From Desulfosoma sp. (GTDB lineage: Bacteria; Desulfobacterota; Syntrophobacteria; Syntrophobacterales; DSM-9756): a DNA stretch of 64,000 bases. Of the stretch, positions 17,185 through 34,255 are shown one piece after another. The notes beneath the pieces are model-generated. The model saw only the letters and a list, made by a program, of their open reading frames with translations, did not search any database and had not been told where the DNA came from. Position numbers and translations under genes: made by a program. The stretch lies in NCBI GenBank assembly GCA_037481875.1, contig JBBFKY010000009.1, positions 62,001 to 126,000 of the forward strand. The letters are read 5' to 3'. The first letter of the stretch is position 1, and every line of letters begins with the position of its first letter.

Positions 17185-17224
17185 GACCATGCCTCCTCAC
17201 GAGGTGTTTCGACGCCCACAACGT

Positions 17225-18403: not shown

Positions 18404-18500
18404 ATGCAGGTCCTTTACCCTTCGTTGTGGAACAATACTGTGGTGTCGCACTCGGCGCTTTAGTTGTGGGCCGAGCGCCGTTCCCATCTTCTTGCGTGAA

Positions 18501-18739: not shown

Positions 18740-18755
18740 GTGAATGTTTATTCAC
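18740..18755. promoter_or_regulatory. GTGAA-N6-TTCAC operator-like inverted repeat (site 1)
   Basis: GTGAATGTTTATTCAC, a perfect inverted repeat, extending in fact to GTGAAT-N4-ATTCAC. It lies 45-60 bases upstream of the ferredoxin GTG start. The same GTGAA-N6-TTCAC layout recurs upstream of the CODH-like gene and of the HAO-like cytochrome operon, so it is a good candidate for a shared regulator site. Confidence 0.6.
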
Positions 18756-18767
18756 TGCGGTAATCAT

Positions 18768-19200
18768 ATAAGCCCTCTTGGAACAAGATCAAGATTTACA
18801 AAGATTTTCTAGAGAAGTTTTTCTCGGCTCTCAAGGAAACCTGAGGGGCTCTAAGGCTCTGAGATGGAAATTCATATTCACATTAAATCCTCAATAAATC
18901 TGTGGTTCACATGTGAAAAATCGCTGAACCTTGCGCTCTTTCGGGAAACCTGATGCCCAAAATGTGCCGCGGACCCGAGCTGGAAACGAATCCAGAAAAA
19001 TGCGGCTTTGAAACGGATCCCTAATACTGCGCGAGACTCGGAGTGGCCTTCAGCCTTCCCACGGTTTCAGGTTTTCTTGATCATTGCCTTTCCAGCTGTT
19101 TATAAGGACGTGAGCCAGTGAAACGACCGAGCTTCACGGACGACGCTCACACATACCCGTGGCCGTGCATGATCTCGGTGCTTGAAACATAGGATAAGTC
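18768..19200. promoter_or_regulatory. Divergent control region between ferredoxin and Mrp operon
   Basis: AT-richer than its surroundings and free of genes. It contains a perfect 12-base palindrome TTCACATGTGAA at 18906-18917, and a nearby ATTCATATTCAC at 18870-18881, which share half-sites with the GTGAA/TTCAC element at 18740 but in back-to-back orientation. Two transcripts, the ferredoxin gene leftward and the Mrp antiporter operon rightward, must start in or near this stretch. No clear -35/-10 pair stands out for either. Confidence 0.4.
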
Positions 19201-22023
19201 ATGAACATTTTGGTTTTTTTGGTGGGCTTTCCCGTGATGGGGGCGCTCCTTGTTTTTCTGGGAGCCAAACGCGGGCGCACCATGGCTACCTGGATGGCGG
19301 CGGTGTCCTTGGGATGTGCCTTGGGACTTTTGGCGAGCCTGTCTTTTTCTGTTTTCCAGGGACTGTCTCTGGAATTTCGCCTCGCTTGGATGCCTCATCT
19401 AGGACTGGAATTCGCCCTGCGCCTTGATGGATTGTCATTGATCTTTTGTGCCATCATTTTTGGCATCGGCCTTCTCATTGTTCTTTATGCTCACTACTAC
19501 ATGCCTCAACGGGACTCACTAGGCCGCTTTTTGGCTCTGTTGCTACTCTTTGCCGGTGCGATGACCGCCCTGGTGCTGGCCGATGATCTTGTGTTTTTGT
19601 TCGTTTTTTGGGAAGTAACAAGCTTGGTTTCCTTTTTTCTTGTGGCCTACGATGGCGCTTCTCGAGAGGCCCGGCATGGAGCCCGGTTGGCCTTGACCGT
19701 CACGGTTGGAGGCGGGTTAGCTCTTCTGGCCGGCTTTCTGCTCCTCGGGCATATGTGCGGCACCCACCGTCTCTCGTCTATCCTGCTTATGGGTCATGTG
19801 GTGCGCACCCATCCACTCTATGCGCCGGCTTTGATCTTGATCCTTTTCGGCGTGTTCACCAAATCGGCCCAGTTTCCCTTTCATTTTTGGCTCCCTGCAG
19901 CCATGGCGGCCCCGACGCCAGCCAGTGCCTATTTGCATTCGGCGACCATGGTGAAGGCCGGGGTTTTCCTGCTGGCTCGGCTCTTTCCTGTGTTCTCCGG
20001 CACCTCGTTGTGGTTTGGTCTTGTGGTCGGCGTGGGGCTTTGCACTCTTGCCGTGGGAGCCTACATCGCCCTTTTCAAACACGACCTGAAGGCCCTTCTG
20101 GCCTATTCCACGGTGAGCCATCTCGGGCTGATCACGTTGCTTCTGGGATTTGGGACACCTCTGGGCGCTGTAGCGGCCGTTTTCCACATGATCAACCATG
20201 CGACTTTCAAAGCTTCCCTTTTTATGGCCGCGGGGATCATCGATCATGAGGCGGGCACGAGGGACATGCGGCGTTTGAACGGGTTGTGGTTCTGCATGCC
20301 GTACACGGCTTTGCTGGCCACGGTTTCGGCGGCGGCCATGGCCGGCGTGCCGTTATTGAACGGGTTTTTGAGTAAGGAAATGTTTTTCGCGGAGCTCCTG
20401 CAGCAGGAGGTTTTGGGGCCTTTTCGACACTTTTTGACCTTTGCAGCGGCTTCGGCCGGAGTCTTTTCCGTGGCGTATTCGCTACGGTTTATTCACGATG
20501 TTTTCTTTGATCGGCCATGGTGCGAACTCCCGCAACGCCCCCATGAAGCTCCGGCATGGATGCGGGTGCCTGTGACCGTCCTTTCGGCTCTATGCCTCTT
20601 GGTGGGTGTGTTTCCTGACCAGAGCGTTCGGCCTTTATTGGAGGCGGCGTCTGCCTCCGTGCTCATGGGCCCGACGCCCGAGTATTCCCTTGCCCTGTGG
20701 CATGGTCTGACACCTCCCTTGATCCTGAGCCTGTGCGTGATGACAGGCGGCGTTGTGCTTTACGGGTTTCGAGAACGCCTTTTTCAGCTGCACGATGCGT
20801 ATTTTCCCCCATGGACCGGAGGCACGCTATTCGATGCCCTTATGGATAAACTCCTGTCCTTAGCTCGTAGCTTCCATAAGGTGTTGGACAATGGGTCTAT
20901 GACACGTGCTGTGGCACTGCTCATAGGTTCGGCGACGGTGCTGGGTGCGTGGGCCTTTATGGGTACCCGAAGTGTCCTTTTAGGTCCTTTGGGCCTTTCT
21001 TCGATGGACGGGCCGGCTCTTGTGGGAGCCGCGCTTCTTGTGGTTGCCACGTGGGCGGCGGTCATAGGACGCAGGCGTCCATTGCTGGCGATCGTTAACC
21101 TGGGCGTCACGGGGGTGGTGGTCACGCTGACTTTTGTGCGTTTTTCAGCCCCTGATTTGGCTTTGACCCAGATAGCCGTGGAAATGGTCTTCACAGTGCT
21201 GCTTCTTTTGATTTTGTTTTTCATGCCCCAGGAAATCCCTCCGCAATCTTCCCCTTGGCCACATGTTCAGAGCGCCTTTCTGGCCCTTCTGGCAGGGTTG
21301 GGCATGACTGCCGTGACCCTTGGCGTGCTGACCCGCCCCTATGCTCCTATTTCCGATTATTTTCTCAGGGTCGGGAAGCCTCTTGCCGGAGGTGCCAATG
21401 TGGTCAATGTGATTCTGGTGGATTTCCGAGGATTTGACACGCTGGGGGAAATCACGGTAATGGCCATTGCCGCCCTGGGTGTTTTTGGGCTGCTGGACAG
21501 TTTGCGCAGGCATCGAGTCTCTTCCGGGTTCACTTTGGAAAACCGGGCCATAGAAATTCATCCGCCGCTCCTGGCCCATATTGCCCGGCTGCTCATGCCT
21601 TTTGCGCTTCTGGTGGCTGTTTTCCTCTTCTTTAGAGGCCACAACCGGCCCGGGGGGGGATTCGTAGCCGGGCTTGTGGTGGCCACCGTGCTCATTTTGC
21701 AGCATATGGCCAGCGGGATTGAATGGACACAGATGCGACTGCGCTTTCGAATTTTGCCGTGGATCGCCGCAGGTCTTTTTACAGCCCTTTTGACGGGATT
21801 GGGAAGCCTCATCGTCGGCCGGCCTTTCCTCACATCGGCCTTGGTTCACGGACGGATTCCATGGATCGGTGAGTGGGAAATCACCACGGCCCTTGCTTTT
21901 GATCTGGGAGTCTTTTTCACCGTGGTGGGGACATTGCTCCTCATTCTCGTGGGATTAGGGCGCCTTAGCGTGGGACCGGACAAGGTGCCGCACCCAAAAG
22001 AAAGCCGAGGGGAGGCGAACTGA
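19201..22023 (+). CDS. mrpA: Mrp cation/proton antiporter subunit A fused to subunit B
   Basis: 940 residues, almost wholly membrane. The first two thirds is the NuoL-like MrpA channel (GRFLALLLLFAGAMTALVLA, HSATMVKAGVFLLARLFPVF, FKHDLKALLAYSTVSHLGLI with the conserved Lys). After about residue 600 comes the MrpA C-terminal extension with FVRFSAPDLALTQIAVEMVF, and after about residue 785 an MnhB domain, with FLFFRGHNRPGGGFVAGLVV. There is no separate mrpB gene, so A and B are fused. AGGATAAGTC precedes the ATG. The complex exchanges Na+ (or other cations) for protons; in anaerobes it may also couple to ferredoxin- or hydrogenase-type modules. Confidence 0.93.
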   Translation: MNILVFLVGFPVMGALLVFLGAKRGRTMATWMAAVSLGCALGLLASLSFSVFQGLSLEFRLAWMPHLGLEFALRLDGLSLIFCAIIFGIGLLIVLYAHYYMPQRDSLGRFLALLLLFAGAMTALVLADDLVFLFVFWEVTSLVSFFLVAYDGASREARHGARLALTVTVGGGLALLAGFLLLGHMCGTHRLSSILLMGHVVRTHPLYAPALILILFGVFTKSAQFPFHFWLPAAMAAPTPASAYLHSATMVKAGVFLLARLFPVFSGTSLWFGLVVGVGLCTLAVGAYIALFKHDLKALLAYSTVSHLGLITLLLGFGTPLGAVAAVFHMINHATFKASLFMAAGIIDHEAGTRDMRRLNGLWFCMPYTALLATVSAAAMAGVPLLNGFLSKEMFFAELLQQEVLGPFRHFLTFAAASAGVFSVAYSLRFIHDVFFDRPWCELPQRPHEAPAWMRVPVTVLSALCLLVGVFPDQSVRPLLEAASASVLMGPTPEYSLALWHGLTPPLILSLCVMTGGVVLYGFRERLFQLHDAYFPPWTGGTLFDALMDKLLSLARSFHKVLDNGSMTRAVALLIGSATVLGAWAFMGTRSVLLGPLGLSSMDGPALVGAALLVVATWAAVIGRRRPLLAIVNLGVTGVVVTLTFVRFSAPDLALTQIAVEMVFTVLLLLILFFMPQEIPPQSSPWPHVQSAFLALLAGLGMTAVTLGVLTRPYAPISDYFLRVGKPLAGGANVVNVILVDFRGFDTLGEITVMAIAALGVFGLLDSLRRHRVSSGFTLENRAIEIHPPLLAHIARLLMPFALLVAVFLFFRGHNRPGGGFVAGLVVATVLILQHMASGIEWTQMRLRFRILPWIAAGLFTALLTGLGSLIVGRPFLTSALVHGRIPWIGEWEITTALAFDLGVFFTVVGTLLLILVGLGRLSVGPDKVPHPKESRGEAN

Positions 22024-22355
22024 TGGAAGTCCTGTATGCTCTGAGTGTGGGAATGCTGACAGCTGCGGGGGTGTATCTGCTGCTGGAAAAGCGCAGTGTC
22101 TTCGTTGTCCTGGGTCTTATGATTCTATCCTACGCGGTGAACCTCTTTCTTTTTGCCATGGGACGCTTGCACACCAACAAGCCGCCTTTGGCGGATCTGG
22201 GAACACAGTTTGCCGACCCTTTGCCGCAGGCCTTGGTGCTCACGGCCATCGTCATAGGCTTTGCCATGACGGCCTTCGTGCTGGTCTTAGCCCTGCATGG
22301 GCGGGTAGTGTCCGAATCCGACCGGGTCGATGTTATTGAGGAGGAATCAGAGTGA
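22023..22355 (+). CDS. mrpC: Mrp antiporter subunit C (NuoK-like)
   Basis: 110 residues with three membrane spans (VLYALSVGMLTAAGVYLLLE, FVVLGLMILSYAVNLFLFAM, and ALVLTAIVIGFAMTAFVLVL), the usual MrpC/MnhC/NuoK arrangement. Its ATG overlaps the mrpA stop (ATGA-type overlap at 22021-22025), and its own stop overlaps the GTG start of mrpD, so the genes are tightly coupled. It forms part of the proton pathway of the antiporter complex. Confidence 0.92.
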   Translation: MEVLYALSVGMLTAAGVYLLLEKRSVFVVLGLMILSYAVNLFLFAMGRLHTNKPPLADLGTQFADPLPQALVLTAIVIGFAMTAFVLVLALHGRVVSESDRVDVIEEESE

Positions 22356-23869
22356 ACCATTGGATCGTAGCCCCCGTTGTGATTCCTCTCGCCGGCGGCG
22401 CCCTGCTGTTGGCCATGGCCCGCTCCAGCTTACCCTGGAAACGCGGCGTCAGTGCGGTTGCATGCGTCCTACAGCTTTTAGCAACCTGGAAGCTGGCCGT
22501 CGCGGTCGCTTCGGGGGGTCTCTGCGTTTACAGTGTGGGTCATTGGCCGGCACCGTTCGGGATCGTGTTGGTGGTGGATCGACTGGCCGTCGTCATGCTA
22601 GGGCTCACGGCGGTTGTAGCCCTCATGGTCCTTGGGTATGCCGCTTCGGGCGAGGATGCTCAAGGCCGTGGCTTTCATGCTCTGTATCAATTACAAGTGA
22701 TGGGCCTCTCTGGGACCTTTCTTGCGGGGGACCTGTTCAACCTTTTTGTGTTCATCGAAATTCTCCTCATCGCCTCCTATGGACTGCTCCTTCAAAATGC
22801 CGGCTCTGGGCGCAGTCGTGCGGCATTCCATTATGTCGTCATGAATCTGCTGGGCTCATCGCTCTTTCTTGTGGCTGTGGGCCTTTTTTACGGCATGCTC
22901 GGCACGTTGAACCTTGCCGACCTGTCGGTCAAAATGGCATCGGTGCGACCCGAAGACGCCGGTTTGGTGCGCACGGCCGCCGTTTTGTTGCTGACTGTCT
23001 TTGGGCTCAAGGGGGCTCTGGTCCCCCTTCATTTCTGGCTTCCGATCGCCTATACAGCGGCTCCTGGATCGGTGGCCGCTCTCTTTTCGCTTTTGACCAA
23101 AGCAGGGGCTTACGCGACGATGCGGGTCCTGCCTTTATTTTTCGGACCGGATACTGGCGGAGCGCCAAACGTGGCGATGCCATGGCTGGTGCCGACGGCC
23201 TTGGCCACGGTCTTGGTGGGGACAGCCGGTGCCCTGGCCGCCACAGACCTTCGCCGCTTGTTGTCTTATGCGGTGCTTGTGTCCATGGGAACCCTTTTTG
23301 CCGGTATCGGTCTTTTCAGCGTCCAGGCCATGGCGGCGTCCCTCTTTTACCTGGTTCACAGCACACTGGTCACGGCAGGGCTCTTTGTGCTCTCGGATGT
23401 CATAGCTAGCCAGCGGGATCGAGGAAGTGCACTGACGCCGGGAAGCCCCGTCCCTCAATCGGCGCTTCTAGGAACATGTTTTGTCACAGGTGGCATGACC
23501 CTGGCGGGGATGCCTCCCCTTAGCGGGTTTGCAGCCAAGGTTCTCCTTCTTCAGGCCGCATGGGGCCGAGGAGCCGTCACCGTCGGGGTTTGGACGATTC
23601 TCCTCCTGTCCGGGTTGGCTCTTTTGGTGGCATTGCAGCGTGCCGGCAGTGTGATCTTTTGGAAGGCCGAGCCTTTGGAAGGGATCGTGAGGGGCAGGGC
23701 AGAGCATCCACGGTGGCCGGTTGTGATGCTTTTGGCCATGAGCCCGGCTTTGGTGGTGCTGGCCGGTCCTTTCAGCGCCATTTGCCTGGAAACGGCGGTG
23801 CAGATCATGGATCCCAGCTCTTATGTTTCCGGGGTTTTGGAACTCGGCCTTATGGGGAGGAGACCATGA
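22352..23869 (+). CDS. mrpD: Mrp antiporter subunit D (NuoM/NuoN-like)
   Basis: 505 residues, about 14 membrane spans, homologous to the antiporter-like subunits of complex I. Motifs include LSGTFLAGDLFNLFVFIEIL (conserved Glu of the NuoM family), LLTVFGLKGALVPLHFWLPI (conserved Lys and His) and LLTKAGAYATMRVLPLFFG. Start is GTG at 22352, with GAGGAGGAATCAGA in front, overlapping the mrpC stop. Forms, with MrpA, the ion-translocating core. Confidence 0.93.
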   Translation: MNHWIVAPVVIPLAGGALLLAMARSSLPWKRGVSAVACVLQLLATWKLAVAVASGGLCVYSVGHWPAPFGIVLVVDRLAVVMLGLTAVVALMVLGYAASGEDAQGRGFHALYQLQVMGLSGTFLAGDLFNLFVFIEILLIASYGLLLQNAGSGRSRAAFHYVVMNLLGSSLFLVAVGLFYGMLGTLNLADLSVKMASVRPEDAGLVRTAAVLLLTVFGLKGALVPLHFWLPIAYTAAPGSVAALFSLLTKAGAYATMRVLPLFFGPDTGGAPNVAMPWLVPTALATVLVGTAGALAATDLRRLLSYAVLVSMGTLFAGIGLFSVQAMAASLFYLVHSTLVTAGLFVLSDVIASQRDRGSALTPGSPVPQSALLGTCFVTGGMTLAGMPPLSGFAAKVLLLQAAWGRGAVTVGVWTILLLSGLALLVALQRAGSVIFWKAEPLEGIVRGRAEHPRWPVVMLLAMSPALVVLAGPFSAICLETAVQIMDPSSYVSGVLELGLMGRRP

Positions 23870-24348
23870 GACGTTGGGTTCCTCAGCCGCTGCTGACAGG
23901 AGTCTTATGGGCCACATGGGTGCTACTTTCAAACGAGCTGGAGATCACGTCGGTGGTTGTGGGCGCCTTTTGGGGTTTCATGATTCCCCACGTCACGCGG
24001 GCTTTTTGGCCTCGCGTGCAGGTTCGAAATCCCATGCAAATCCTCAAGTATGTGGCACGGCTTTTGTGGGATATAGCCGTGGCGAACCTGGAGGTGGCCA
24101 TGGTTGTGCTGGGCCCTCGGAAGCGCATGAGACCCGCTTTTGTGATTTACCCTTTGGAACTGACTCATGAATTTGCGGTCATCGTGTTGGCCTGTACCAT
24201 ATCCCTTACCCCTGGCACTGTGACGGTGGACGTGGACAAAGCCCATCGCCGCCTGCTTATTCATTGTCTCAACGCCCCGGACCCATCGACCTTGGTGCGG
24301 CGGCTGCGGGAAAGATACGAAGCCCCTTTAAAGGAGATTTTTCCATGA
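23866..24348 (+). CDS. mrpE: Mrp antiporter subunit E
   Basis: 160 residues. Two or three N-terminal spans (LLTGVLWATWVLLSNELEIT, VVVGAFWGFMIPHVTRAFW) and then a soluble domain with AVIVLACTISLTPGTVTVDV, the MrpE family signature, and a C-terminal helix ending at EIFP. The ATG at 23866 overlaps the mrpD stop and has GGGGAGGAGACC directly before it. A longer open frame from 23560 runs inside mrpD and is not the start. Confidence 0.92.
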   Translation: MRRWVPQPLLTGVLWATWVLLSNELEITSVVVGAFWGFMIPHVTRAFWPRVQVRNPMQILKYVARLLWDIAVANLEVAMVVLGPRKRMRPAFVIYPLELTHEFAVIVLACTISLTPGTVTVDVDKAHRRLLIHCLNAPDPSTLVRRLRERYEAPLKEIFP

Positions 24349-24617
24349 TCTTATCCATGGCTTTTCTTGTGGCTCTTTTCATGATGTGCACCGCTTTGGT
24401 GTTGTGCCTATGGCGTTTGGTGCTGGGCCCTGACATGCCGGACCGCGTTCTGGCATTGGATACCCTGTACATCAACACGATCGCCCTTTTGGTGCTCCTG
24501 GGTGTTTATTATCCGAGCCAGGTTTATTTTGAGAGCGCTGTGGTGCTGGCCATGTGCGGGTTCATTTCGACGACGGCTTTTCTTAAGTACTTGCTGCGAG
24601 GAGACATTATCGAATGA
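24345..24617 (+). CDS. mrpF: Mrp antiporter subunit F
   Basis: 90 residues with three spans, including LVALFMMCTALVLCLWRLVL, the characteristic GPDMPDRVLALDTL loop, and FISTTAFLKYLLRGDIIE at the end. ATG overlaps the mrpE stop, AAAGGAGATTTTTCC lies in front. The GPxxxDRVxAxD motif is diagnostic of MrpF/MnhF. Confidence 0.92.
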   Translation: MILSMAFLVALFMMCTALVLCLWRLVLGPDMPDRVLALDTLYINTIALLVLLGVYYPSQVYFESAVVLAMCGFISTTAFLKYLLRGDIIE

Positions 24618-24961
24618 TCCCGTGGAATCTGATGGGTGAGATCGTCATCGCTTTTTTCCTGGTTCTGGGAGCCTCCCTGGCGCTGGTCGGTTCCATCGGC
24701 TTGGTACGCATGCCGGACTTTTTCATGCGTCTTCACGGACCTACCAAGGCCACCACGTTGGGGATCGGAAGTATGCTCACAGCCTCCTTTCTTTGCTTTC
24801 TTCTTCGTGAACATACCTGGAGCTTGCACGAGATTCTGATCACTTTTTTTCTTTTTATTACGGCTCCAGTAAGCGCTCACATGCTGGGTAAGGCGGCATT
24901 GCACCTTAAAGTTCAAAAAAATGCGGATTCATACGGTGCGGACCAACGTGTCCGCCCCTAA
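24614..24961 (+). CDS. mrpG: Mrp antiporter subunit G with repeat-derived C-terminus
   Basis: 115 residues, the last gene of the operon, overlapping the mrpF stop. Three spans and the family motif LVGSIGLVRMPDFFMRLHGP with TKATTLGIG mark MrpG/MnhG. The final dozen or so residues (NADSYGADQRVRP) and the stop codon lie within a GCGGACCAACGTGTCCGC element, a member of the dispersed palindromic repeat family, so the native C-terminus was probably overwritten by a repeat insertion. The conserved core is intact, so function is likely kept. Confidence 0.88.
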   Translation: MIPWNLMGEIVIAFFLVLGASLALVGSIGLVRMPDFFMRLHGPTKATTLGIGSMLTASFLCFLLREHTWSLHEILITFFLFITAPVSAHMLGKAALHLKVQKNADSYGADQRVRP

Positions 24962-25180
24962 AAAAGACGCTTGCAAAGGGACCAACGCATTTGTCCATAA
25001 CCCGACCTTCGTAGGCGCGGACCGATGTGTCCACCCCAAAACACCGACCCTGGCAAACAGGCCAGCATGTCCAACCATGAGCAGATCCCCGTAGGGGCGG
25101 TTTGATGAGTCGGCCCCAAAACACTTCCGCATGCCATCCAGATCCGCGTTGCATACAACGGTACGCCCCTAAAGAAATGC
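24935..25180. repeat. Cluster of dispersed GCGGACC...TGTCCGC repeats
   Basis: Several imperfect palindromes in a row: GCGGACCAACGTGTCCGCCC at 24939-24958, a diverged GGGACCAACGCATTTGTCC at about 24978, GCGGACCGATGTGTCCACCC near 25017, GTAGGGGCGGTTTGATGAGT near 25091, and a GTACGCCCC end near 25160. They match the palindromic hinge of the mosaic repeat seen in full at 31.4-31.9, 38.4-38.8 and 41.8-42.1 kb. Confidence 0.75.
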
Positions 25181-25311
25181 ATCGGAAAGCTTCCAATCGC
25201 AACAAGCTGCCTTGAGGCTTTGACGGCTCTGCGCTATGGGGATTATCGGGATTGCTGTCTGCTCAAGACCTTAAAAACCATGCGTTCACCAAAAGGAAAG
25301 GACGAACCGGT

Positions 25312-25752
25312 ATGCTGGAAAAGATGATCGCCTTGCTCAAGTCCCAGGATATGTGCGTCTTGGCGACCTGCCGAGATCACAAGCCCCATTGTTCTCTCAT
25401 GGCTTACGTGACCGATCAGGAGGGCCTCACGGTGTATATGGCCACACTGAGGAACACAACCAAGTTTCATAACATTTTGCAAAACGGACATGTAAGCCTT
25501 CTTGTGGATACTCGACAAAACACTCCAGACCGCTCACACATTTTGTCCCTTACCGTGGAAGGATGGGCTGCACCGCTAACCGATGCGTCCCGCGAAATGG
25601 ATGTGCGTCGCCTTCTTCAAGAAAAGCACCCTCAAATTCGAGGACTCTTGAATCACGAGCAATCGGCAGTGCTTGAAGTGAAGGTTCGGGCTTTGCTCTT
25701 GCTGGAGGGACCCGAAAAAGCCACCCATGTTCAGGTGCAGCGGTCGAGCTGA
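25312..25752 (+). CDS. Pyridoxamine 5'-phosphate oxidase-like FMN-binding protein
   Basis: 146 residues with the split-barrel flavin-binding fold: MCVLATCRDHKPHCSLMAYV, VYMATLRNTTKFHNILQNGH (the TxKxxNI element) and VSLLVDTRQNTPDRSHILSL. This matches PPOX-type proteins that bind FMN or F420; the exact substrate cannot be told. The ATG at 25312 has AAAGGACGAACCGG in front; the frame upstream to 25252 looks like leader. Stands alone between the repeat cluster and a methyltransferase gene. Confidence 0.78.
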   Translation: MLEKMIALLKSQDMCVLATCRDHKPHCSLMAYVTDQEGLTVYMATLRNTTKFHNILQNGHVSLLVDTRQNTPDRSHILSLTVEGWAAPLTDASREMDVRRLLQEKHPQIRGLLNHEQSAVLEVKVRALLLLEGPEKATHVQVQRSS

Positions 25753-25871
25753 AATTCGACCCTGCTCACGTTTTTCTGCTGTCACCTCTTGCCTTGCCTT
25801 CATGGAATGATTTTGTTCAGGTGTGGACAAACCCCGACAGGTTGCTGTCCGCATACAGAAAGGAGCAAGGC

Positions 25872-26927
25872 ATGGCCGAAAGAAACACATTGCAGCAAAA
25901 GGTACAACAATGGATCTACACGGAGGACGCTTTTCAAAGACTCGACGAAACGGATGATACGGTTTTCTACAGCACGGACCGGTTTGTGTCGCACCTAGAC
26001 CGCGCAGCTTTGGAAACCGTGGAGCAGATCATCGGCACTTTGATCATTGAAGATCATCCGGTGATTTTGGACCTGATGGCGGGATGGGATTCTCATATTC
26101 CCGACACTGTCCAGGCTGCGGAGGTGGTCGGGTTGGGACTCAATGAAAACGAACTTAAGGCCAACAAGGCGCTCACACGCCATGTCCTTCATGACCTCAA
26201 CCGGGATCCTCGGCTTCCTTTCCCCGACAACACCTTTGATGTGGTCCTGAACACGGTGTCCGTCGACTATATGACGCAGCCTTTTCGTGTTTTTGCGGAA
26301 GTGGCTCGTATTCTCAAACCGGGCGGCATGTTTCTGGTCATCTTCTCCAACCGTATGTTCCCTCAAAAAGCCGTCAAGATATGGAGACAGAGCAGCGAAG
26401 AAGAACGCATTATGCTTGTGGAAGATTTCTTTACCAGCGTGCCGGACTTTGAACAGCCGCGCCTTGTGATTTCCAAGGGGAAACCTCGCCCTGCCGACGA
26501 TAAGTACGCCCATCTGGGTATTCCCAGCGATCCTATTTACGCCATGTGGGCGGAAAAGAAAGGGGCTCCCAAGGGTAGGCGTGCGAGACCGATGGTGAAC
26601 TTAAGTGCCGGGGAAGCAAAGTCCTCGGAAGAGGTGGAAGAAAGAAAGCGTCACGTGGCGAAAACCCTGCAATGCCCTCACTGTGGGGAGCGAATGAAAA
26701 AGTGGAGGGTTCCGCAGACACCCTTTACGGAATGGGATAACGAGTTCATGTACATCTGCTTCAACGACGCTTGTCCATACCTGGTGAGGGGTTGGAGCGT
26801 CATGGAGTGCCAAGGGAACCGAGGCTTTTCCTATCGCATGATGTACAATCCGGACCGGAACATTCTCCTGCCTGTTCCCGTACCCTGTCTTCGAGCCCTG
26901 AAGGAGAGCATCGTGGACGAAGAGTAA
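25872..26927 (+). CDS. SAM-dependent methyltransferase-like protein with C-terminal zinc finger
   Basis: 351 residues. The N-terminal two thirds contains a class I methyltransferase core: PVILDLMAGWDSHIP (motif I, unusual in having AGWDS in place of GxGxG), LPFPDNTFDVVLNTVSVDYM and VARILKPGGMFLVIFSNRMF. The C-terminal part holds an Ogr/Delta-like zinc-finger: LQCPHCGERMKKW, then MYICFNDACPYLVRGW. The fusion suggests a DNA- or protein-associated methyltransferase, but no target is evident. The start at 25872 follows AAAGGAGCAAGGC. Ends just before a strong bidirectional terminator. Confidence 0.7.
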   Translation: MAERNTLQQKVQQWIYTEDAFQRLDETDDTVFYSTDRFVSHLDRAALETVEQIIGTLIIEDHPVILDLMAGWDSHIPDTVQAAEVVGLGLNENELKANKALTRHVLHDLNRDPRLPFPDNTFDVVLNTVSVDYMTQPFRVFAEVARILKPGGMFLVIFSNRMFPQKAVKIWRQSSEEERIMLVEDFFTSVPDFEQPRLVISKGKPRPADDKYAHLGIPSDPIYAMWAEKKGAPKGRRARPMVNLSAGEAKSSEEVEERKRHVAKTLQCPHCGERMKKWRVPQTPFTEWDNEFMYICFNDACPYLVRGWSVMECQGNRGFSYRMMYNPDRNILLPVPVPCLRALKESIVDEE

Positions 26928-26950
26928 GCTTGAGCTAAAGACTCCATGAA

Positions 26951-26982
26951 GAAAGGGCCGCCGTGAAAACGGCGGCCCTTTC
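26951..26982. terminator. Bidirectional terminator between convergent genes
   Basis: A perfect 14-bp stem, GAAAGGGCCGCCGT with ACGGCGGCCCTTTC, around a GAAA tetraloop. It lies between the stops of the methyltransferase (plus) and TetR regulator (minus) genes and can end both transcripts. Confidence 0.88.
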
Positions 26983-26984
26983 GT

Positions 26985-27623
26985 TTAGGGTGTGAGGCAC
27001 TGACGGTAAAGTTTCCAGGCCGTGCGAGCGTGTTCCAAAAAATCAAATCGGCCTCCGCTCGCATGCCATAAAATGGCTGCAGGCTGCACAATGCCCAAAA
27101 ACATGACGGCGGCGGCTTCAGGCGGCACATCGGAACGCAATTCACCTTCCTGTTGTCCTTCACGAATAATGGCTGCAATGCGCATGACATGAGCGTGAAT
27201 GATTTCGCCCAGCCGAACCCGCCTTCGATCTGCATCCCCGATGATTTCTTCCGAAAAAAGGATACGAGGAAGAGCCTGATGGGAAGTGATGAAAAAGACG
27301 TGCCGAGCCAGCAAGGCGTCCAGACGGGCTAAGGAAGAAAAATGTTCCTGGCGCACCTTTTCCACGTGCTCCGCCAGCCGCTGCCCCACCAGTTCCAAGA
27401 CCGCATCCAAAACGGCGTCTTTGTTGGGGTAATGCCGATAGAGGGCCGAAGGCACCACGCCCACCTCTTGCGCCAGCCGTGAGACACTCAGACGCTTCAA
27501 CCCCTCTCGATTCACAATCCGTAAAGCCGCCTCGGCAATCTCCGCTCGACGCCCTATAAGCTCAGTGGGTGATTGAGAAGCGTGTTTTCCATGAGAATTT
27601 TCTTTCACTTTTCGTGCTGCCAT
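26985..27623 (-). CDS. TetR/AcrR-family transcriptional regulator
   Basis: 212 residues. The N-terminal helix-turn-helix is typical: IAEAALRIVNREGLKRLSVS then RLAQEVGVVPSALYRHYPNK and DAVLDAVLE. The C-terminal ligand domain is variable as usual. It is divergent from the CODH-like gene at 27916, with a 293-base gap holding the GTGAA/TTCAC element, so it could control that gene, itself, or both. The ligand is not predictable. Confidence 0.88.
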   Translation of the reverse strand: MAARKVKENSHGKHASQSPTELIGRRAEIAEAALRIVNREGLKRLSVSRLAQEVGVVPSALYRHYPNKDAVLDAVLELVGQRLAEHVEKVRQEHFSSLARLDALLARHVFFITSHQALPRILFSEEIIGDADRRRVRLGEIIHAHVMRIAAIIREGQQEGELRSDVPPEAAAVMFLGIVQPAAILWHASGGRFDFLEHARTAWKLYRQCLTP

Positions 27624-27834
27624 GCCCGGGCCTCAGGATGTCTGGATTTTTCGAAAACATTGGGGTCCTGGGAACGCACTGAAGCGTGCGCCCTCATGTT
27701 CGAGCCGTAGCTAAGGATTTTGGGACAGATACCATGGGCCGCCCTTTACAGAAAAAGGACTTGAATCGTGGGTGAACACTTGTTCGTCCCCCTCTTGACC
27801 TTTGAGCCCTCATGGGCTCCAATGTGTCCAGTAG

Positions 27835-27850
27835 GTGAAAAAATATTCAC
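27835..27850. promoter_or_regulatory. GTGAA-N6-TTCAC operator-like inverted repeat (site 2)
   Basis: GTGAAAAAATATTCAC, a perfect inverted repeat of the same layout as those at 18740 and 34111. It lies 66-81 bases upstream of the CODH-like ATG at 27916, the usual place for an operator or activator site near the promoter. Confidence 0.6.
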
Positions 27851-27915
27851 TTCATGCCGGGGCTTTGGTTCAGGAACGCCCCACAACAGGAACTTTCATA
27901 CCATGGAGGATACGT

Positions 27916-29820
27916 ATGGAAAAAGAACGATTGTCCTACCACGAATCGGTGCAGACCATGGTGGAGCGCATTCGCCGCGACGGCATGACCAACATTTGGG
28001 ATCGCTATGCGGCTCAGGGACTTGGCAGCGATCCTGATAAACGTTGTCCCTTTTGCATGGGCGGTGTGCGATGTGATCTGTGTTCCAACGGGCCCTGTCG
28101 AGCCGATGCGGAAAAGGACAAACGGGGTGTATGCGGGATTAAAGCGGACGGCATGGCCATGCGCATGATGGTTTTGCGCAATATTATGGGAACATCCACG
28201 TATCATTATCATACGGAACAGACCTTACGCACGCTTCGTGCCACGGCTCGAGGTCAAAGCCCTTTTCGCATTGCGGAGCCGCAGAAGTTGAAAAGTTTTG
28301 CGCAACGCCTTGGTGTGGACACATCGGGTTCCGTGGAAGACACGGCTTTGCGTCTGTGCGATTTCGCCCAGAAAGATTTCAACCGACCCGCTCATGAACC
28401 CAGCGAAATCGTCTCAAGGTTGGCGCCGGCGGATCGGCAGGCTTTGTGGAAAAAGTTGGATATTTTTCCCGGAGGTGTTTACGGGGAGATGCTTCGTGCG
28501 TGCAGTTCTTGCCTGACCAATGTGGACGGTTACTACGTCAGTTTGGCGCTGAAAGCCATGCGTATGGCCGTCGCCATGGCGTACCAGAGCCAAATCGTCA
28601 ATGAGTACTGCCAAGACGTGCTCTTTGGTGTTCCCAGACCGCACCGTATGCGCGTGGATTTGGGAGTGTTGGATCCTGACTACGTGAATGTGCTCCCGAA
28701 CGGTCATGAACCTTTTTTGGGTTTTGCCATGGTGCAGCTGGCTCGCCGACCCGAGTGGCAAGAGAAGGCCAAAGCTGTGGGTGCCAAGGGGCTTCGTGTC
28801 ATTGCGTGCATTGAAACAGGGCAGGAAATGATTCAGCGTTGGACCATGGACGATGCCTTTTACGGCTTTACGGGCAACTGGATCATGCAGGAAGCCGTCT
28901 TGGCGAGCGGCTGCGTGGATCTTTTTGCCTGCGACATGAATTGTTCCATGCCCATTGACCCGCTCTATGCCCAAAAATATCAGTTTAAACTTATTCCGGT
29001 AAGTGACCTCGTGGCCTTTGAAGGCATTACGGATCGTTTGGATTATGTACCGGAACAAGCGGCTGAACAGGCGGCTGCACTTTTAACCATGGCCATCGAG
29101 AATTTTCCAAAAAGGCGTAAGGCCGTCGAACCTGTCACTGGATTACGGCTCGGAGAAGCGGTGGTGGGCTTTTCTACGGAAAGTATTGTAGACGCCTTGG
29201 GAGGATCCTTGGATCCCTTGCTTAAAGCCATCAAGGATGGAGCCATTCGAGGGGTGGCCGGGTTTGTTTCCTGCACCACGTTGAGGGATTCCGGCCAGGA
29301 TGTGCATAGTGTGCGTATGGCCAAGGAATTGATTCGTCGAGATATTCTCGTGTTGTCTATGGGCTGTGGGAATGCAGCCTTGCAGGTGGCGGGACTGTGT
29401 CTGCCCGAGGCCAAGGATTTGGCCGGGCCGGGTCTTAAGGCGGTCTGTGAGGCTTTAGGGGTTCCACCGGTGCTCAGTTACGGCACGTGCACGGATGTGG
29501 GCCGATGTGCGGACCTGGTGGCCGCCGTGTCGCAGGCTTTGGGAGGCGTGCCCATTCCCGATCTGCCCGTGGTGGCATGCGCACCGGAGTACATGGAACA
29601 AAAGGCCACCATTGATGCCATCTTTGCTCTGGCTTTTGGGTTGTACACCTATGTGAATCCCGTGCCTAATGTGACAGGGGCGCCCAATCTGGTGAAGCTT
29701 CTCACCGAGGATCTCGTCAACGTTACCGGTGGGCTGCTGAATGTCAATCCCAACGCTCAGGAAGCCGCCGATGCGCTTCTAGCGCATATTGAAAAAAATC
29801 GTCAGAAACTCGGCCTTTAA
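27916..29820 (+). CDS. cooS: Nickel CO dehydrogenase catalytic subunit (CooS-like) with altered C-cluster motif
   Basis: 634 residues, the usual CooS length. Cluster motifs: Cys44 and Cys47 (CPFC, D-cluster position with atypical spacing), Cys53, Cys56, Cys61 and Cys73 (B-cluster). C-cluster candidates: His264 (NGHEP), Cys343, Cys453, Cys484, Cys525, and the acid/base Lys563 (APEYMEQK). Where canonical enzymes have CCTGNE, this protein has VIACIETGQEM, so the ligand Cys is Glu300, with a Cys two residues earlier. The His-rich channel helix is also reduced (STYHYHTEQT). The ATG has GGAGGATACGT before it. There is no cooF, cooC or ACS gene nearby. It may be a variant CODH or a related redox enzyme; its GTGAA/TTCAC site links it to nitrogen-oxide or oxygen stress genes. 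Confidence 0.82.
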   Translation: MEKERLSYHESVQTMVERIRRDGMTNIWDRYAAQGLGSDPDKRCPFCMGGVRCDLCSNGPCRADAEKDKRGVCGIKADGMAMRMMVLRNIMGTSTYHYHTEQTLRTLRATARGQSPFRIAEPQKLKSFAQRLGVDTSGSVEDTALRLCDFAQKDFNRPAHEPSEIVSRLAPADRQALWKKLDIFPGGVYGEMLRACSSCLTNVDGYYVSLALKAMRMAVAMAYQSQIVNEYCQDVLFGVPRPHRMRVDLGVLDPDYVNVLPNGHEPFLGFAMVQLARRPEWQEKAKAVGAKGLRVIACIETGQEMIQRWTMDDAFYGFTGNWIMQEAVLASGCVDLFACDMNCSMPIDPLYAQKYQFKLIPVSDLVAFEGITDRLDYVPEQAAEQAAALLTMAIENFPKRRKAVEPVTGLRLGEAVVGFSTESIVDALGGSLDPLLKAIKDGAIRGVAGFVSCTTLRDSGQDVHSVRMAKELIRRDILVLSMGCGNAALQVAGLCLPEAKDLAGPGLKAVCEALGVPPVLSYGTCTDVGRCADLVAAVSQALGGVPIPDLPVVACAPEYMEQKATIDAIFALAFGLYTYVNPVPNVTGAPNLVKLLTEDLVNVTGGLLNVNPNAQEAADALLAHIEKNRQKLGL

Positions 29821-30473
29821 AACGGCAGAGGGTGCTGGGATTCCCAGCGCCCTTCATAAAGCCCGATGGTGCCGTGAAAGTGAAAGGTGCACGAAAGAAT
29901 TCGAAGGCCTGCGGCCTCAAGCAGTGCTTGGGTGGCGCCTCGCTTCATAAAGTCGCGAAAAGCTTTGTAATGGTTTCGACCCGCCATACATTCCACCATG
30001 TTCAAAAGGTTCATAAACATTCGAGCAGACCCGTGGGTGGGGCAAGCATAGTCCAGCACGAAGACAGTGCCGCCAGGTTTTAAGACACGATACCCTTCGG
30101 CCAGCATGGCAAGGCGTTTTCCATGCGGTTTTTCATGAAGGGAAAGAGAATAGATGAGGCCGTCAAATACCTTGGCGGGAAAAGGAAGGAGGCAACCGTT
30201 GCCTCGAACAAAAAATCCTGCGTGCCGCACCTCGCGCCCAACACGTCGAAGCATAGGCCACGAAATATCGATCCCCACGGCGGCTGATCCAGCAGCTCGA
30301 AGCCTGATCACTTGTGTGCCCGTGCCACAGCCCATATCAAGGATTCTGGAAAGGTTGTGCTTTTGAACCGCCTCGGTGACACTCTGGCGACAGGAGTGAA
30401 GCGCTCTGTCCACCCAGGGATAGAGGACGGCAATCAGGGCGTAGTCATTCCCGGTTCGATCAGCTCTTTTCAT
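29817..30473 (-). CDS. Class I SAM-dependent methyltransferase
   Basis: 218 residues with SRILDMGCGTGTQVIRLRAA (motif I), VGIDISWPMLRRVGREVRH, LLPFPAKVFDGLIYSLSLHE and YRVLKPGGTVFVLDYACPTH, the standard Rossmann methyltransferase order. The C-terminus resembles UbiE-like or demethylmenaquinone-type proteins, but the substrate is uncertain. It ends convergent with the CODH-like gene (4-base overlap of stops) and its start overlaps the IF-2-like gene stop, so it is second in that minus-strand operon. Confidence 0.8.
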   Translation of the reverse strand: MKRADRTGNDYALIAVLYPWVDRALHSCRQSVTEAVQKHNLSRILDMGCGTGTQVIRLRAAGSAAVGIDISWPMLRRVGREVRHAGFFVRGNGCLLPFPAKVFDGLIYSLSLHEKPHGKRLAMLAEGYRVLKPGGTVFVLDYACPTHGSARMFMNLLNMVECMAGRNHYKAFRDFMKRGATQALLEAAGLRILSCTFHFHGTIGLYEGRWESQHPLPF

Positions 30474-31152
30474 ACACTTCCACCAGATCTCCCAAGTGAG
30501 CCTCTTTCCAGTCGGGAATTTTAATGCCCACCTGCTTGCCTTTGCCGGCTTCTTTGACGGGGTTTCGATCGATTTGCATGGATTGAATCACCCCTGCATA
30601 CACCGGTCCCATGGCGGAAAAGATACGAAAGGGAGCCCCCAGTCGAAAAATGCCCTCTGTGATCTCACATCCGATAATGATGCCGTGCCGGCTGCTCTTG
30701 AAAAGGGCAATGATTTTGCCTTGCCCAAGAATCTTTTCCGGCTCTGCGGTTTGGCTCTGAACTTGTCTGGTCTGAAAAATGCGAGCGGTGACGGCGTCCA
30801 CCAGATCATGAATGACATCAAAGAGAAAAATTTCCACTCCCATGTCTCGAGCGATTGCCGCCACCTTGGGACCCAAATCCACACCCAATGCCAGCACCAG
30901 GCGGCTTCCGGTAGCCGCCATCAGGATATCGGACTTGGAGACCGTACCCACGCCTCGATGAATGATGCGAATGGAGTGGCCTTTCGCGGTGAGGTTTTCC
31001 AAGGCCTTTTCGATGGCTTCACAGGTTCCCACCGTATCGGCCTTGATCACCACTTCAAGGGTCTCTTTCGACGAAAGAGTCTTTTTCGGGGTTGAGAGGC
31101 TTTCTTTTGAAATTTTGGACTTGGAAGACTTCTGTTCTTTGGGGTCGGCCAT
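30460..31152 (-). CDS. Free-standing IF-2 C-terminal half (domains III-IV) homologue, no GTPase
   Basis: 230 residues. After a Lys/Ser-rich N-terminal tail it reads ETLEVVIKADTVGTCEAIEK, IRIIHRGVGTVSKSDILMAA and FLFDVIHDLVDAVTARIF, which is the IF-2 domain III pattern (KADVQGS..EAI and RIIHSGVGAI), then a domain IV-like barrel with ILGQGKIIALFKSSRHGIII and QVGIKIPDWKEAHLGDLVEV. The G domain and domain II are entirely missing. It might bind the ribosome or fMet-tRNA-like ligands without GTP; a real role is unknown. The start ATG at 31152 has GGAGCACAAAC before it and is preferred over 31188. First gene of a two-gene minus operon with the methyltransferase. Confidence 0.78.
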   Translation of the reverse strand: MADPKEQKSSKSKISKESLSTPKKTLSSKETLEVVIKADTVGTCEAIEKALENLTAKGHSIRIIHRGVGTVSKSDILMAATGSRLVLALGVDLGPKVAAIARDMGVEIFLFDVIHDLVDAVTARIFQTRQVQSQTAEPEKILGQGKIIALFKSSRHGIIIGCEITEGIFRLGAPFRIFSAMGPVYAGVIQSMQIDRNPVKEAGKGKQVGIKIPDWKEAHLGDLVEVYEKS

Positions 31153-31199
31153 GTTTGTGCTCCAGGTGTTGGGATCGTCGTAGGCCATGGGGCTTTGAA

Positions 31200-32013
31200 A
31201 GCTTTTTCCAGAAAACTCGCGGCTTGGCTTATGGTTCCGCTAAGGCGTTTTTAACTTCGATTTGTGTAGAGTCAATCAATGGAGGCAAGGATGTCGGGAA
31301 AGTCAACAAAATTTTGCGGTGCATAGGCACTGGATATTCAGAAAGAATTCGAGAGGTCGAAATCCAGCGTTCGCTTGGGAACCTGAATCTATCACGTTAT
31401 TCGCCCTGCAGGGGCGTACCGGTGTGTGCGCCCCTACGAAAGGGTTTTGCAGGCGTACGGGTATTTCACGCAAAACCCAGAATGTGTTGGAAAGGGCCCA
31501 TGGTGCATCGGTCGGTGGACGGCACGCAGAGTGTTTTCGGAAATGTCACCGATATACCCAGGAGTGCCTCTGTCGGGGTTGATCGATGTGTCAGCCCCTG
31601 AACCTGCGCCAAGGGGCTGACTTTCGGGCGGACACGTCGGTCCGCCCCTCGGAATCCCCAAATCGATCCCGTGTGTAGACCTGCAGGAAATCCCCGCTGT
31701 TTCGTGCCACGGGAAACCCAGAAAAGCCGCAGTCGGCATCAAAAACCCTGTAGGGGCCAACCCATGTGTCCGCCCCAAATGCGCCGCCACGGCCTTAGTG
31801 CCCAGGCCCATCCACCAATTCCCGCCCACGGACCATAAGGTAGGGGCGGACCGATGTGTCCGCCCCAAAACCCACCGGGAACGGGAAGTCCAGGGCGCAT
31901 ACATCGGTGCGCCTCTTCAGAAAAGGCAAATGGGTCTTTTGGGACGGGGTGCTAGGCGCTTTCCCGTCCCTTATGCCGGCATTGTCGCGTCCTTTACGCC
32001 CTTGATGTGTCAG
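31200..32013. repeat. Mosaic repeat (reverse copy) and repeat cluster
   Basis: No gene. Read on the minus strand, about 31590-31880 forms a near-complete copy of a mosaic repeat: a palindromic hinge of the GGGCGGACACATCGGTCCGC type at 31845-31866, a spacer with GGCGGCGCATTTGG, a second hinge near 31760, the GGGTTTTTGATGCCGACTGC module at 31720-31755, and the CGGACCGACGTGTCCGCCCG hinge near 31635, closed by AGCCCCTTGGCGCAGGTTCA. Separate hinges occur at 31405-31432 (GGGGCGTACCGGTGTGTGCG) and 31889-31915. The same modules in the same order occur at 38.4-38.7 kb, and in part at 41.8-42.1 kb. Confidence 0.8.
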
Positions 32014-33411
32014 CTAGGGGCCGAACACCTCTTTGGGACGTTCCGTGCTTCCCGTGGCGTTTGGAAAATCGGTGGCCTTATAAGCCTTTTGGTTCGTTTC
32101 CAGCAGATGACGTGCCTCTTCCATGAAATTGTTGTAACGCTTTTTGCATTCGTAAAAACCATGCCACCAGGAATAATCGGGCGCCATCATGGCCGCCCCC
32201 ATACGGGCTCGCCGTCCTTCGTGGTGCCACAGCTCGTAGTATTCCACTTCCAATCGCTCGTCAAAAAACTTGGTTTTGTCCAGAAGGCCTTTAGCGTAAA
32301 GATCATCCAACATCGCCTTGGCCGGTTTGAAATAAACCTGGTTGTACTCTTCTATCACCTTGTCAAGTTTTACATAGTGATCTTGAACCCAGGTCTTGCC
32401 GTGGCATTGCATGCAGATAACCTGCATTTTCTCCCTTTCCACCTGCCAGTTCGTCTGAGCCGGAAAGGCCGCAAATTCGGAAGGGCGAATGGTCAAGGGC
32501 GCCTGGGTTTCCCAGGAGAGGCGTTCCGTCACGTCATGGGAAGTGAGCACAGTGCCGGCCCCTGACATGTGGCAGGATGCGCAGGTAGGGGCGCGATAAT
32601 CCACACCCGGAGTCCATGTGCCCCCAGCGGCGGTCCAATTGTATTGATCGCCGAAGGCGGTGTAGATGTCTCCGTGCTTGGACTCCATGTAAATCTCAAT
32701 TTGCGGATGGTCCGGACCCAGATGACACTGGCCGCAGGCTTCGGGTTTGCGAGCTTCCATGACCGAAAAACGATGGCGGGTATGACAGCTGGTGCAGCTC
32801 CCTTTACTCCCGTCCAGGTTGACCCTTCCCACGCCCACGTTAGGCCAGGTGGCCGGATCCAGGACGCCGTCCTTAATACGAAGCACCGTGCCGTGACAAT
32901 GGAAACAGCCGGCTTCCCGTTCGGTGTCGCTGTTCATGCCCAACTGAAGCCATGGGTCGATTTTCCACATGATTTCCACCGTATTGGCGTGTTTGCTTCG
33001 ACTGTACTGTTTGGCTTCGTCCGGATGGCATCGGGAACAATCCTTAGGGGTCACCACAGCCGCCACTGGAACCCGGTATTCTTTGTTCCCATAAGGCACA
33101 TCGTTTCTTTCGTATTGCTTGTAATGCTCTTGGCTTACGTCCGGATCAAACGCTTCCGCTTGATGGCAGTCCAGGCACGTAATGTTGGCACTGGCGTGGC
33201 GGCTATAAGCCCAATCGGCGAAAATACCAGGACTCTCCCTGCGGTGGCACTCAAGGCAAGCGACAGCTTCCTTGGGCATGCTGCGTTCGATGCGGAATTC
33301 CTTGACCTTGGGCGTATTCAACGCCGTTTGAGCTAAAGCCACGGCCCCAAGGACGACGGCCATCAACAAAGCACCTGCCAAAACCTTTCCCAGCCGATGT
33401 CCTTCCTTCAC
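32014..33411 (-). CDS. Octaheme c-type cytochrome, hydroxylamine oxidoreductase (HAO)-like reductase
   Basis: 465 residues with eight CxxCH heme sites: CLECH, CLDCH, CSRCH, CFHCH, CTSCH, CGQCH, CASCH and CMQCH. An N-terminal signal segment (LAGALLMAVVLGAVALAQT) sends it to the periplasm. The C-terminal APDYSWWHGFYECKKRY matches the conserved helix of the HAO family. Paired with a NapC/NrfH-type cytochrome, the arrangement fits the reductive HaoA/HaoC systems, where nitrite, NO or hydroxylamine are reduced, rather than nitrifier HAO. The GTG at 33411 has AAAGGAGGGTG before it; the TTG at 33435 has none. Reduction as the working direction is inference from partner and host type. Confidence 0.82.
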   Translation of the reverse strand: MKEGHRLGKVLAGALLMAVVLGAVALAQTALNTPKVKEFRIERSMPKEAVACLECHRRESPGIFADWAYSRHASANITCLDCHQAEAFDPDVSQEHYKQYERNDVPYGNKEYRVPVAAVVTPKDCSRCHPDEAKQYSRSKHANTVEIMWKIDPWLQLGMNSDTEREAGCFHCHGTVLRIKDGVLDPATWPNVGVGRVNLDGSKGSCTSCHTRHRFSVMEARKPEACGQCHLGPDHPQIEIYMESKHGDIYTAFGDQYNWTAAGGTWTPGVDYRAPTCASCHMSGAGTVLTSHDVTERLSWETQAPLTIRPSEFAAFPAQTNWQVEREKMQVICMQCHGKTWVQDHYVKLDKVIEEYNQVYFKPAKAMLDDLYAKGLLDKTKFFDERLEVEYYELWHHEGRRARMGAAMMAPDYSWWHGFYECKKRYNNFMEEARHLLETNQKAYKATDFPNATGSTERPKEVFGP

Positions 33412-33450
33412 GGCACACCCTCCTTTCAAACCCAAGAGCCTCTCGTCTTT

Positions 33451-34008
33451 TTACATGCCCAAACCCCTGTAATTGCCCTCCAACTGCTTGTACCCAAAGC
33501 GATCCCGTGCCACGTGCACCAAATTGCGATGACAATCGACACAACGTTTTTCATAACCCGGTCGAGGATACAGCACAGACCGATGAGCCAGCATGGCACC
33601 CCTTTTTTCAGGCATATAAAGAATGTTTCGATGGCACTTCTGGCATTGGTTGTTCTTGAAAGACGCATACGCTGCTTCTCGAGCCTTGGCCCGGTCATAA
33701 GCGTCGGGGCCCTGAGCGAAATGAACCACGATGTCCTTAATACCGTGCATGGTCTTGGCGTAAAAGAATTCCACAGTGTCGTGAGGGGCCGGCAGATGAC
33801 AATCCATGCAGTCGGCCACAAAGCCTTGGGCATTGTTGGTATGGGTCGATGTTTTCCAGGTGTTGTAGGCGAAGCGAATCTCATGGCAAGAAGCACAAAA
33901 CTGAGGGGTCGAGGTGCGGACCATGGTGTAGTAGGTCATGGAAAAAAGAGGGAAAGCCAGCACAACCCCCACGGCGATCCATAATGAAGCCTTCACCCAA
34001 CGCTTCAT
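33451..34008 (-). CDS. NapC/NirT/NrfH-type tetraheme cytochrome (HaoC-like quinol dehydrogenase)
   Basis: 185 residues: an N-terminal membrane anchor (SLWIAVGVVLAFPLFSMTYY) then four CxxCH hemes (FCASCH, CMDCH, CQKCH, CVDCH). This is the layout of NrfH and NapC, which take electrons from menaquinol to a periplasmic reductase, here the octaheme protein whose gene follows 39 bases downstream. The ATG at 34008 with GAGGGAAAATCC before it is preferred to longer frames reaching 34077. The GTGAA/TTCAC element lies about 103-118 bases upstream of this start. Confidence 0.88.
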   Translation of the reverse strand: MKRWVKASLWIAVGVVLAFPLFSMTYYTMVRTSTPQFCASCHEIRFAYNTWKTSTHTNNAQGFVADCMDCHLPAPHDTVEFFYAKTMHGIKDIVVHFAQGPDAYDRAKAREAAYASFKNNQCQKCHRNILYMPEKRGAMLAHRSVLYPRPGYEKRCVDCHRNLVHVARDRFGYKQLEGNYRGLGM

Positions 34009-34110
34009 GGATTTTCCCTCCGGCGCGGGTTTACACGGATACGTTCCACCCCCAGGACCTTTACGGGCGGTTGCCACTTCCTTCGTTAGATCCCAAAGAC
34101 CGCAGAGAAT

Positions 34111-34126
34111 GTGAATGTGTTTTCAC
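34111..34126. promoter_or_regulatory. GTGAA-N6-TTCAC operator-like inverted repeat (site 3)
   Basis: GTGAATGTGTTTTCAC, third perfect occurrence of the GTGAA-N6-TTCAC layout, upstream of the two-gene cytochrome operon. The gap to the start (about 100 bases) leaves room for a leader. It is also upstream, at 700 bases, of nothing on the plus strand, so the cytochrome operon is the likely target. Confidence 0.6.
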
Positions 34127-34255
34127 GGTAAAGGAAGCTTCAATGCCTGTCAAGCGGAAATGTTTCTTCCCTCACCCAGCCAATTCCTCAGCTATTGAAT
34201 ACTCATATGGATCGGCGGAAGGAAGATGAAAGGGTTTTAGCATGTGACTTTGATT

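Follow-up and report, generated by a model that had tools for sequence, protein, structure and literature searches.

Three promoters in the 64-kb stretch of DNA analysed here (the window) carry the same inverted repeat, GTGAA-N6-TTCAC, which raises the questions of which protein reads it and to what signal that protein responds. A first, sequence-only reading had taken the repeat as the mark of three redox/stress promoters, had left the regulator open while pointing to a broken Crp/Fnr gene nearby, and had called for a scan of the whole genome and for footprinting in relatives. We consider it likely that the palindrome is the operator of a TetR-family repressor encoded between the first and the third site, and that a nitrogen-oxide stress signal derepresses the three operons. 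The features concerned are collected in Table 1.

Table 1. Candidate operators and associated genes in the 64-kb window
Feature	Position	Strand	Evidence and remarks
Putative operator 1	18740-18755	-	Exact, GTGAATGTTTATTCAC; coding orientation GTGAATAAACATTCAC; upstream of ferredoxin-flavodiiron-hemerythrin operon
Putative operator 2	27835-27850	+	Exact, GTGAAAAAATATTCAC; between divergent TetR and CODH-like genes
Putative operator 3	34111-34126	-	Exact, GTGAATGTGTTTTCAC; upstream of NrfH-like/HAO-like operon
Probable decayed autoregulatory operator	27593-27608	-	GTGAAAGAAAATTCTC, one mismatch; overlaps listed 5' end of tetR ORF, read as KVKENS
TetR-family repressor, proposed regulator	26985-27623	-	PF00440 TetR_N; divergent from CODH gene
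Ferredoxin, first gene of operon	18501-18695	-	ORF and Shine-Dalgarno; start GTG at 18695
Flavodiiron protein (NO/O2 reductase family)	17225-18460	-	ODP domain
Hemerythrin-domain protein	16630-17190	-	PF01814; weak similarity to RIC/YtfE
NapC/NrfH-type tetraheme quinol dehydrogenase	33451-34077	-	PF03264; four CxxCH
HAO-like octaheme cytochrome c	32014-33435	-	PF13447; eight CxxCH
CooS-V-type 'CO dehydrogenase' (deviant, hybrid-cluster type)	27916-29820	+	TIGR01702; predicted regulon member
Crp/Fnr gene, interrupted	15355-16029	+	PF00027, PF13545; in-frame TAA at 15748-15750

Number and position of the palindromes

The window holds three exact matches to GTGAA-N6-TTCAC against a mean of 0.08 expected from dinucleotide-preserving shuffles, none of which gave three, confirming both the location of the sites and the initial impression that they are far above chance. 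When one mismatch was allowed, the same search returned six matches against 2.8 expected, so that the exact sites alone are individually significant; the one-mismatch sites at 18496 and 34244 were not separable from background in this search, and the latter adjoins no good promoter. The segment 18878-18912, between the ferredoxin promoter and an Mrp-type antiporter operon, contains a number of TTCAC half-sites, an everted TTCACATGTGAA among them, in a geometry other than that of the operator.

Across all 19 contigs of the genome (3.40 Mb), a scan for exact patterns only found five copies of GTGAA-N6-TTCAC, about the number predicted by composition. Three of the five lie within 15.4 kb and are the sole intergenic, promoter-proximal copies. 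The other two are inside ORFs of 623 and 592 aa and, because of this position within coding sequence, were taken as chance occurrences rather than operators. The probability of finding three of five sites in one such stretch is at most 6e-4, a rough upper bound that leaves conservation in relatives out of account. The genome count alone is unremarkable, and the argument for real sites is carried by position and conservation. That the palindromes arose by chance, as a genomic count close to the prediction from composition would allow, is contradicted by their clustering, their promoter position and their conservation in five relatives, and we find it hardly credible; the three are very likely real binding sites of a repressor encoded in the cluster.

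The distances to genes and promoters are short throughout. Operator 1 is 44 bp from the likely ferredoxin start (a GTG preceded by AAGGAGG; the G001 orthologue has ATG at the same position) and lies 7 bp behind a promoter-like TTGATC-N18-TATGAT (18763-18792). Operator 2 is 65 bp from the CODH ATG at 27916 and 11 bp behind TTGACC-N17-TCCAAT (27795-27823), while operator 3, at 33 or about 99 bp from the NapC/NrfH-like start depending on the true start codon, overlaps the -10 element of TTGACA-N17-TACCGT (34125-34153). This arrangement of operator and promoter was found again in the relatives, and placement over or just after the -10 element is the position where a repressor would be expected to bind.

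The half-site GTGAA is identical to that of Rex, the NADH-sensing regulator, whose sites have N4 spacing (GTGAA-N4-TTCAC). That the palindromes are Rex sites with altered spacing is exceedingly unlikely, however, as every operator found has N6 spacing, genomic N4 sites are at background (five, against six for a control pattern) and the N6 site follows the distribution of a TetR gene. The N6 spacing of all three window sites, together with the background-level N4 counts, led us to reject Rex as the regulator.

Conservation in related genomes

Orthologues of the flavodiiron protein (FDP), the CODH and the HAO-like cytochrome were sought in 60 relatives and the surrounding regions compared. In G001, G004, G006, G007 and G008, sites again precede the corresponding gene sets. 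Exact copies were found upstream of the ferredoxin (Fd) and of CODH/TetR in G001, where the operator 3 position holds a one-mismatch site; before the CODH and before TetR-NrfH-HAO in both G004 and G006; before the CODH, TetR-NrfH-HAO and Fd-FDP-hemerythrin (Hr) in G007; and before TetR-NrfH-HAO in G008, a member of another family with a one-mismatch site before CODH-Fd-Hr-FDP. Operator 1 is conserved in G001 and G007, and operator 2 in G001, G004, G006 and G007, with one mismatch in G008. Gene order differs among these genomes: TetR, NrfH and HAO form one operon in four of the five relatives, and in G000 and G001 the HAO operon is detached from TetR and has its own site.

In genomes that lack the TetR and keep CODH, FDP or HAO orthologues, the stretches compared held no exact site. 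Likewise, CooS-V orthologues outside the TetR-bearing genomes (16 further orthologues from the phylum, G003 and G041) had no site in the 150 bp upstream, suggesting that the CODH belongs to the regulon only in genomes that have the TetR. The cluster accounts for both genome-wide exact sites in G001 and both in G006, for three of five in G007, two of five in G004 and one of three in G008; pooled over six genomes, 13 of 22 exact sites fall in the cluster, where 0.12 would be expected in a stretch of 20 kb. Genome scan and footprinting, together with promoter position, thus support the idea that a shared inverted repeat marks three redox/stress promoters.

A TetR-family protein that co-occurs with the operator

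Comparative evidence now points to a regulator that the sequence-only reading had not mentioned, the TetR-family protein encoded divergently from the CODH gene, which co-varies with the motif and, in different phyla, has the site at the beginning of its own gene. It combines a TetR_N helix-turn-helix (PF00440, 42.6 bits against a cut-off of 24) with an all-helical C-terminal domain, as members of the TetR family do; the AF2 model is all-helical, with a pLDDT of 91 and low values over the first ~20 residues. Orthologues (at least 58% identity) occur in six of 56 class genomes, namely the motif-bearing ones only.

An exact operator is found at the tetR start in G004, G006, G007 and G008. In the window and in G001 this site has one or two mismatches, and its remnant encodes KVK(E/D)N in the 5'-terminal part of the listed ORF. 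Because the decayed operator overlaps this end of the ORF, where AF2 confidence is also low, the true tetR start is probably downstream of 27593; given the one-mismatch site, autoregulation of the window's tetR may have been lost.

An operator at its own promoter is a feature of the family, and the copy at the window's tetR has one mismatch. Among TetRs at 37-47% identity, the palindrome at the start is exact in G027 (two copies) and G015, where it closely follows a TTGAC-type promoter, and has one end base changed in G013. Two variant palindromes, CTGAA-N6-TTCAG in G034 and GCGAA-N6-TTCGC in G025, belong to TetRs whose recognition helices are also changed (PSAIYHH and GVSSLYRH against PSAxYRH), a covariation that, with so few independent events, is no more than suggestive. 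Among the 20 best new TetR homologues from a sample of 395 phylum genomes, the site, sought in the 150 bp before the matched start, was present in all 20 with at most one mismatch and exact in 18, while the operator was not found at three weaker homologues with a SEA-x-YRH helix. The start palindromes of such weaker homologues, whose helix is SlmA-like, read GTGAGTGTTCAC (G132), TGTGAATATATGCTCACA (G204) and ATGTAAG...CTTACAT (G331). Overall, 27 of 34 family loci had the exact site, against none of 29 other TetR loci taken as controls from ten of the phylum genomes (Fisher P 1e-11). The family consensus of the palindrome is (A)TGTGAAT-N4-ATTCACA(T). In other phyla, TGTGAA-N6-TTCACA stands just behind a TTGAC-type promoter in at least a member of the Vicinamibacteraceae, another Acidobacteria MAG, a Planctomycetota MAG and Candidatus Brocadia sapporoensis, a spread of the TetR and operator pairing that, among the matches listed, is a lower bound.

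A Crp/Fnr-family protein using the motif, whether the product of the broken gene near operator 1 or an HcpR-type protein, would agree with the presence of that gene beside the cluster and with the control of hcp by HcpR in other deltaproteobacteria (PMC1274295). We nevertheless consider this very unlikely: the motif-bearing genomes G001 and G008 lack the gene, and G003 and G005, which have it intact, are motif-free near the orthologues; the HcpR motifs, wTGTGAnnnnnnTCACAw, TTGACnnnnGTCAA or GTAACnnnnGTTAC, have a different spacing (PMC1274295); and sites on or after -10 elements would be unusual for an activator. The neighbouring Crp/Fnr protein was therefore rejected as the regulator on its phyletic distribution, and the link first drawn to it does not hold, while the separation of the repeat from CRP/HcpR and Rex patterns by its geometry is borne out by the spacing. 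Orthologues of the Crp/Fnr gene in G003-G007 have longer open frames; the single TAA at 15748 may be a nonsense mutation or an assembly error.

Gene neighbourhoods and the likely signal

Across the TetR family, NorB adjoins the regulator in G330 and G426 (TetR-NorB) and lies divergent from it in G075. TetR-NrfH-HAO recurs in G212 and TetR-Fd-FDP in G262, hybrid cluster protein (HCP) is the neighbour in G013, G023, G025 and G032, and hemerythrin in G101, G136, G193 and G349. With neighbour queries drawn partly from the window cluster and from family members themselves, NorB, HCP, HAO/NrfH, Hr, CODH or Fd was found within 1.5 kb at 21 of 34 family loci and at none of 29 control TetR loci, and still at 15 of 28 against 0 of 29 with the six syntenic genomes removed. 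The theme shared by these neighbours is the removal of NO and hydroxylamine, and their recurrence makes derepression of NO/hydroxylamine detoxification the likely role of the regulator. Further genes at family loci include a second HCP gene in G013 (L150 8445-10205), divergent from the TetR-HCP-hemerythrin operon, and a gene for a DUF6448 protein, possibly another regulon member, downstream of TetR in G027 (L148 6017-6655) and G193 (L289 1329-1994).

Many other family members adjoin genes for HlyD-type or RND-like efflux systems or for ABC transporters. Given these efflux-linked members, the family is not uniformly nitrosative, and its ancestral ligand may have been something other than an NO/hydroxylamine stress signal. 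The TetR could then regulate the three operons in response to a xenobiotic, a fatty acyl-CoA or membrane stress, with the redox enzymes as an offshoot of a general stress response; the occurrence of HlyD-type membrane-fusion genes next to several members of the family and the presence of FadR and SlmA among the nearest solved structures would agree with this, but we judge it rather unlikely, as NorB, HCP, HAO, FDP and Hr neighbours recur across families and phyla and have NO/hydroxylamine chemistry in common.

Under the nitrosative reading that we favour, a TetR dimer would sit on the operator, at each promoter over the -10 element or close behind it, and block RNA polymerase. A signal to which nitrogen-oxide stress gives rise (NO, hydroxylamine or a damage product) would bind or modify the repressor, and its release would open three operons at once, those of the ferredoxin-flavodiiron-hemerythrin set, the CooS-V-type enzyme and the NrfH-like/HAO-like cytochrome. 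Binding and repression by TetR, like the nitrosative nature of the signal, are what we infer, the last from the company that the genes keep.

Enzymes of the predicted regulon

The flavodiiron protein resembles flavorubredoxin models, with scores below cut-off. The octaheme cytochrome has HAO-type PDB relatives (4qo5 and HAO) in addition to its eight CxxCH motifs, and its NrfH-like partner hints that it may run in the reductive direction (nitrite/hydroxylamine).

The gene first described as 'CODH-like' does match the CO dehydrogenase family, scoring as a catalytic subunit (TIGR01702), but as judged from its active-site residues the product is more aptly called a CooS-V-type hybrid-cluster protein. 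Its best PDB match is 7b7q (E 1e-198), which we take to be CooS-V of Carboxydothermus, and Glu in place of Cys295 is consistent with that assignment. In HMMER alignments, the Glu of IETGQE in the window CODH lies opposite IESGQE of 7b7q and opposite the second Cys of CCTGNE (Cys295) in the canonical CODH 6t7j, so that, as in clade D/CooS-V-type enzymes, Glu replaces this cluster-C Cys while the other ligands are kept; IETGQE is present in all CODH orthologues resolved by pattern search. In CooS-V, the Cys-to-Glu exchange is reported to give rise to an Fe/S/O hybrid cluster; the enzyme neither oxidizes CO nor reduces CO2 and turns over hydroxylamine as a slow substrate, and its reduction of NO did not exceed background (PMC9311411). 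The replacement of the active-site Cys thus fits the window CODH to the predicted regulon and not to CO metabolism, and together with CooS-V chemistry it groups the enzyme with HCP, which occupies the corresponding place beside TetR in the four genomes named above (G013, G023, G025 and G032). A second association of a CODH with an HAO-like protein, without the TetR, is seen in G066, a genome of another family that has no operator, where a CooS-V-type CODH (L335 1501-4202) lies beside a weak HAO-like match (31% identity).

Relation to known regulatory systems

Regulons for nitrosative stress in anaerobes have so far been described under HcpR, NsrR, NorR and related regulators, and here a TetR repressor whose operator is sharply defined would join the same enzyme classes. 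The literature searched, mostly outside subscription papers, contained no earlier description of a TetR regulator of NO genes or of the operator string. More tentatively, and as a possibility that we rate a little short of probable, the TetR with a TGTGAAT-N4-ATTCACA operator in at least three phyla may be a dedicated sensor of NO/hydroxylamine stress in anaerobes, and clade D (CooS-V-type) CODHs may be nitrosative-stress enzymes standing in for HCP. If true, a TetR protein would do the NO/hydroxylamine sensing that has until now been attributed to Crp/Fnr, Rrf2 and NorR proteins. For the clade D CODHs, the operator makes their role directly testable, as it predicts an inducing signal and partner enzymes.

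Among TetR-family proteins, the closest PDB fold match of the window TetR is SlmA (4gct, ~24% identity, TM 0.7-0.8), a nucleoid occlusion factor that has a recognition helix of the SEAAxYRH type and binds the GTGA-containing palindrome GTGAGTACTCAC. The window TetR differs in its N6-spaced GTGAA halves at promoters and in its helix, VPSAxYRH, and scores 66.9 bits with the NCBIfam SlmA model against a cut-off of 120. The string GTGAGTACTCAC occurs in PMC3116907. FadR of Bacillus, likewise a TetR-family protein, is a close match in sequence profile and fold (1vi0, 3whb), but the neighbours of the window TetR are not fatty-acid genes and its NCBIfam FadR score is 54.7 against a cut-off of 200.

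With respect to function, the NsrR and NorR regulons are alike in that flavorubredoxin, hcp, ytfE-type and nor genes respond in them to NO or nitrite, but unlike the window regulator neither NsrR, an Rrf2-family protein, nor NorR belongs to the TetR family. The NsrR motif is gATGyAT-N5-ATrCATc, and the sites of NorR, a sigma-54 activator, have the pattern GT-N7-AC (PMC1274295). The HcpR (Crp/Fnr) regulon of deltaproteobacteria likewise governs HCP and N-oxide detoxification genes in anaerobes, but its protein family and motifs differ from those of the window TetR system (PMC1274295), and the Crp/Fnr gene beside the cluster does not co-vary with the sites. The best solved relative of the window CODH, CooS-V(Ch) of clade D, shares with it the Glu in place of Cys295. 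A 2026 survey of clade D CODHs found no clear pattern of gene context, with proof of a stress role missing (PMC13056359); in contrast to the lack of any common context described there, the window CODH would belong to a defined regulon.
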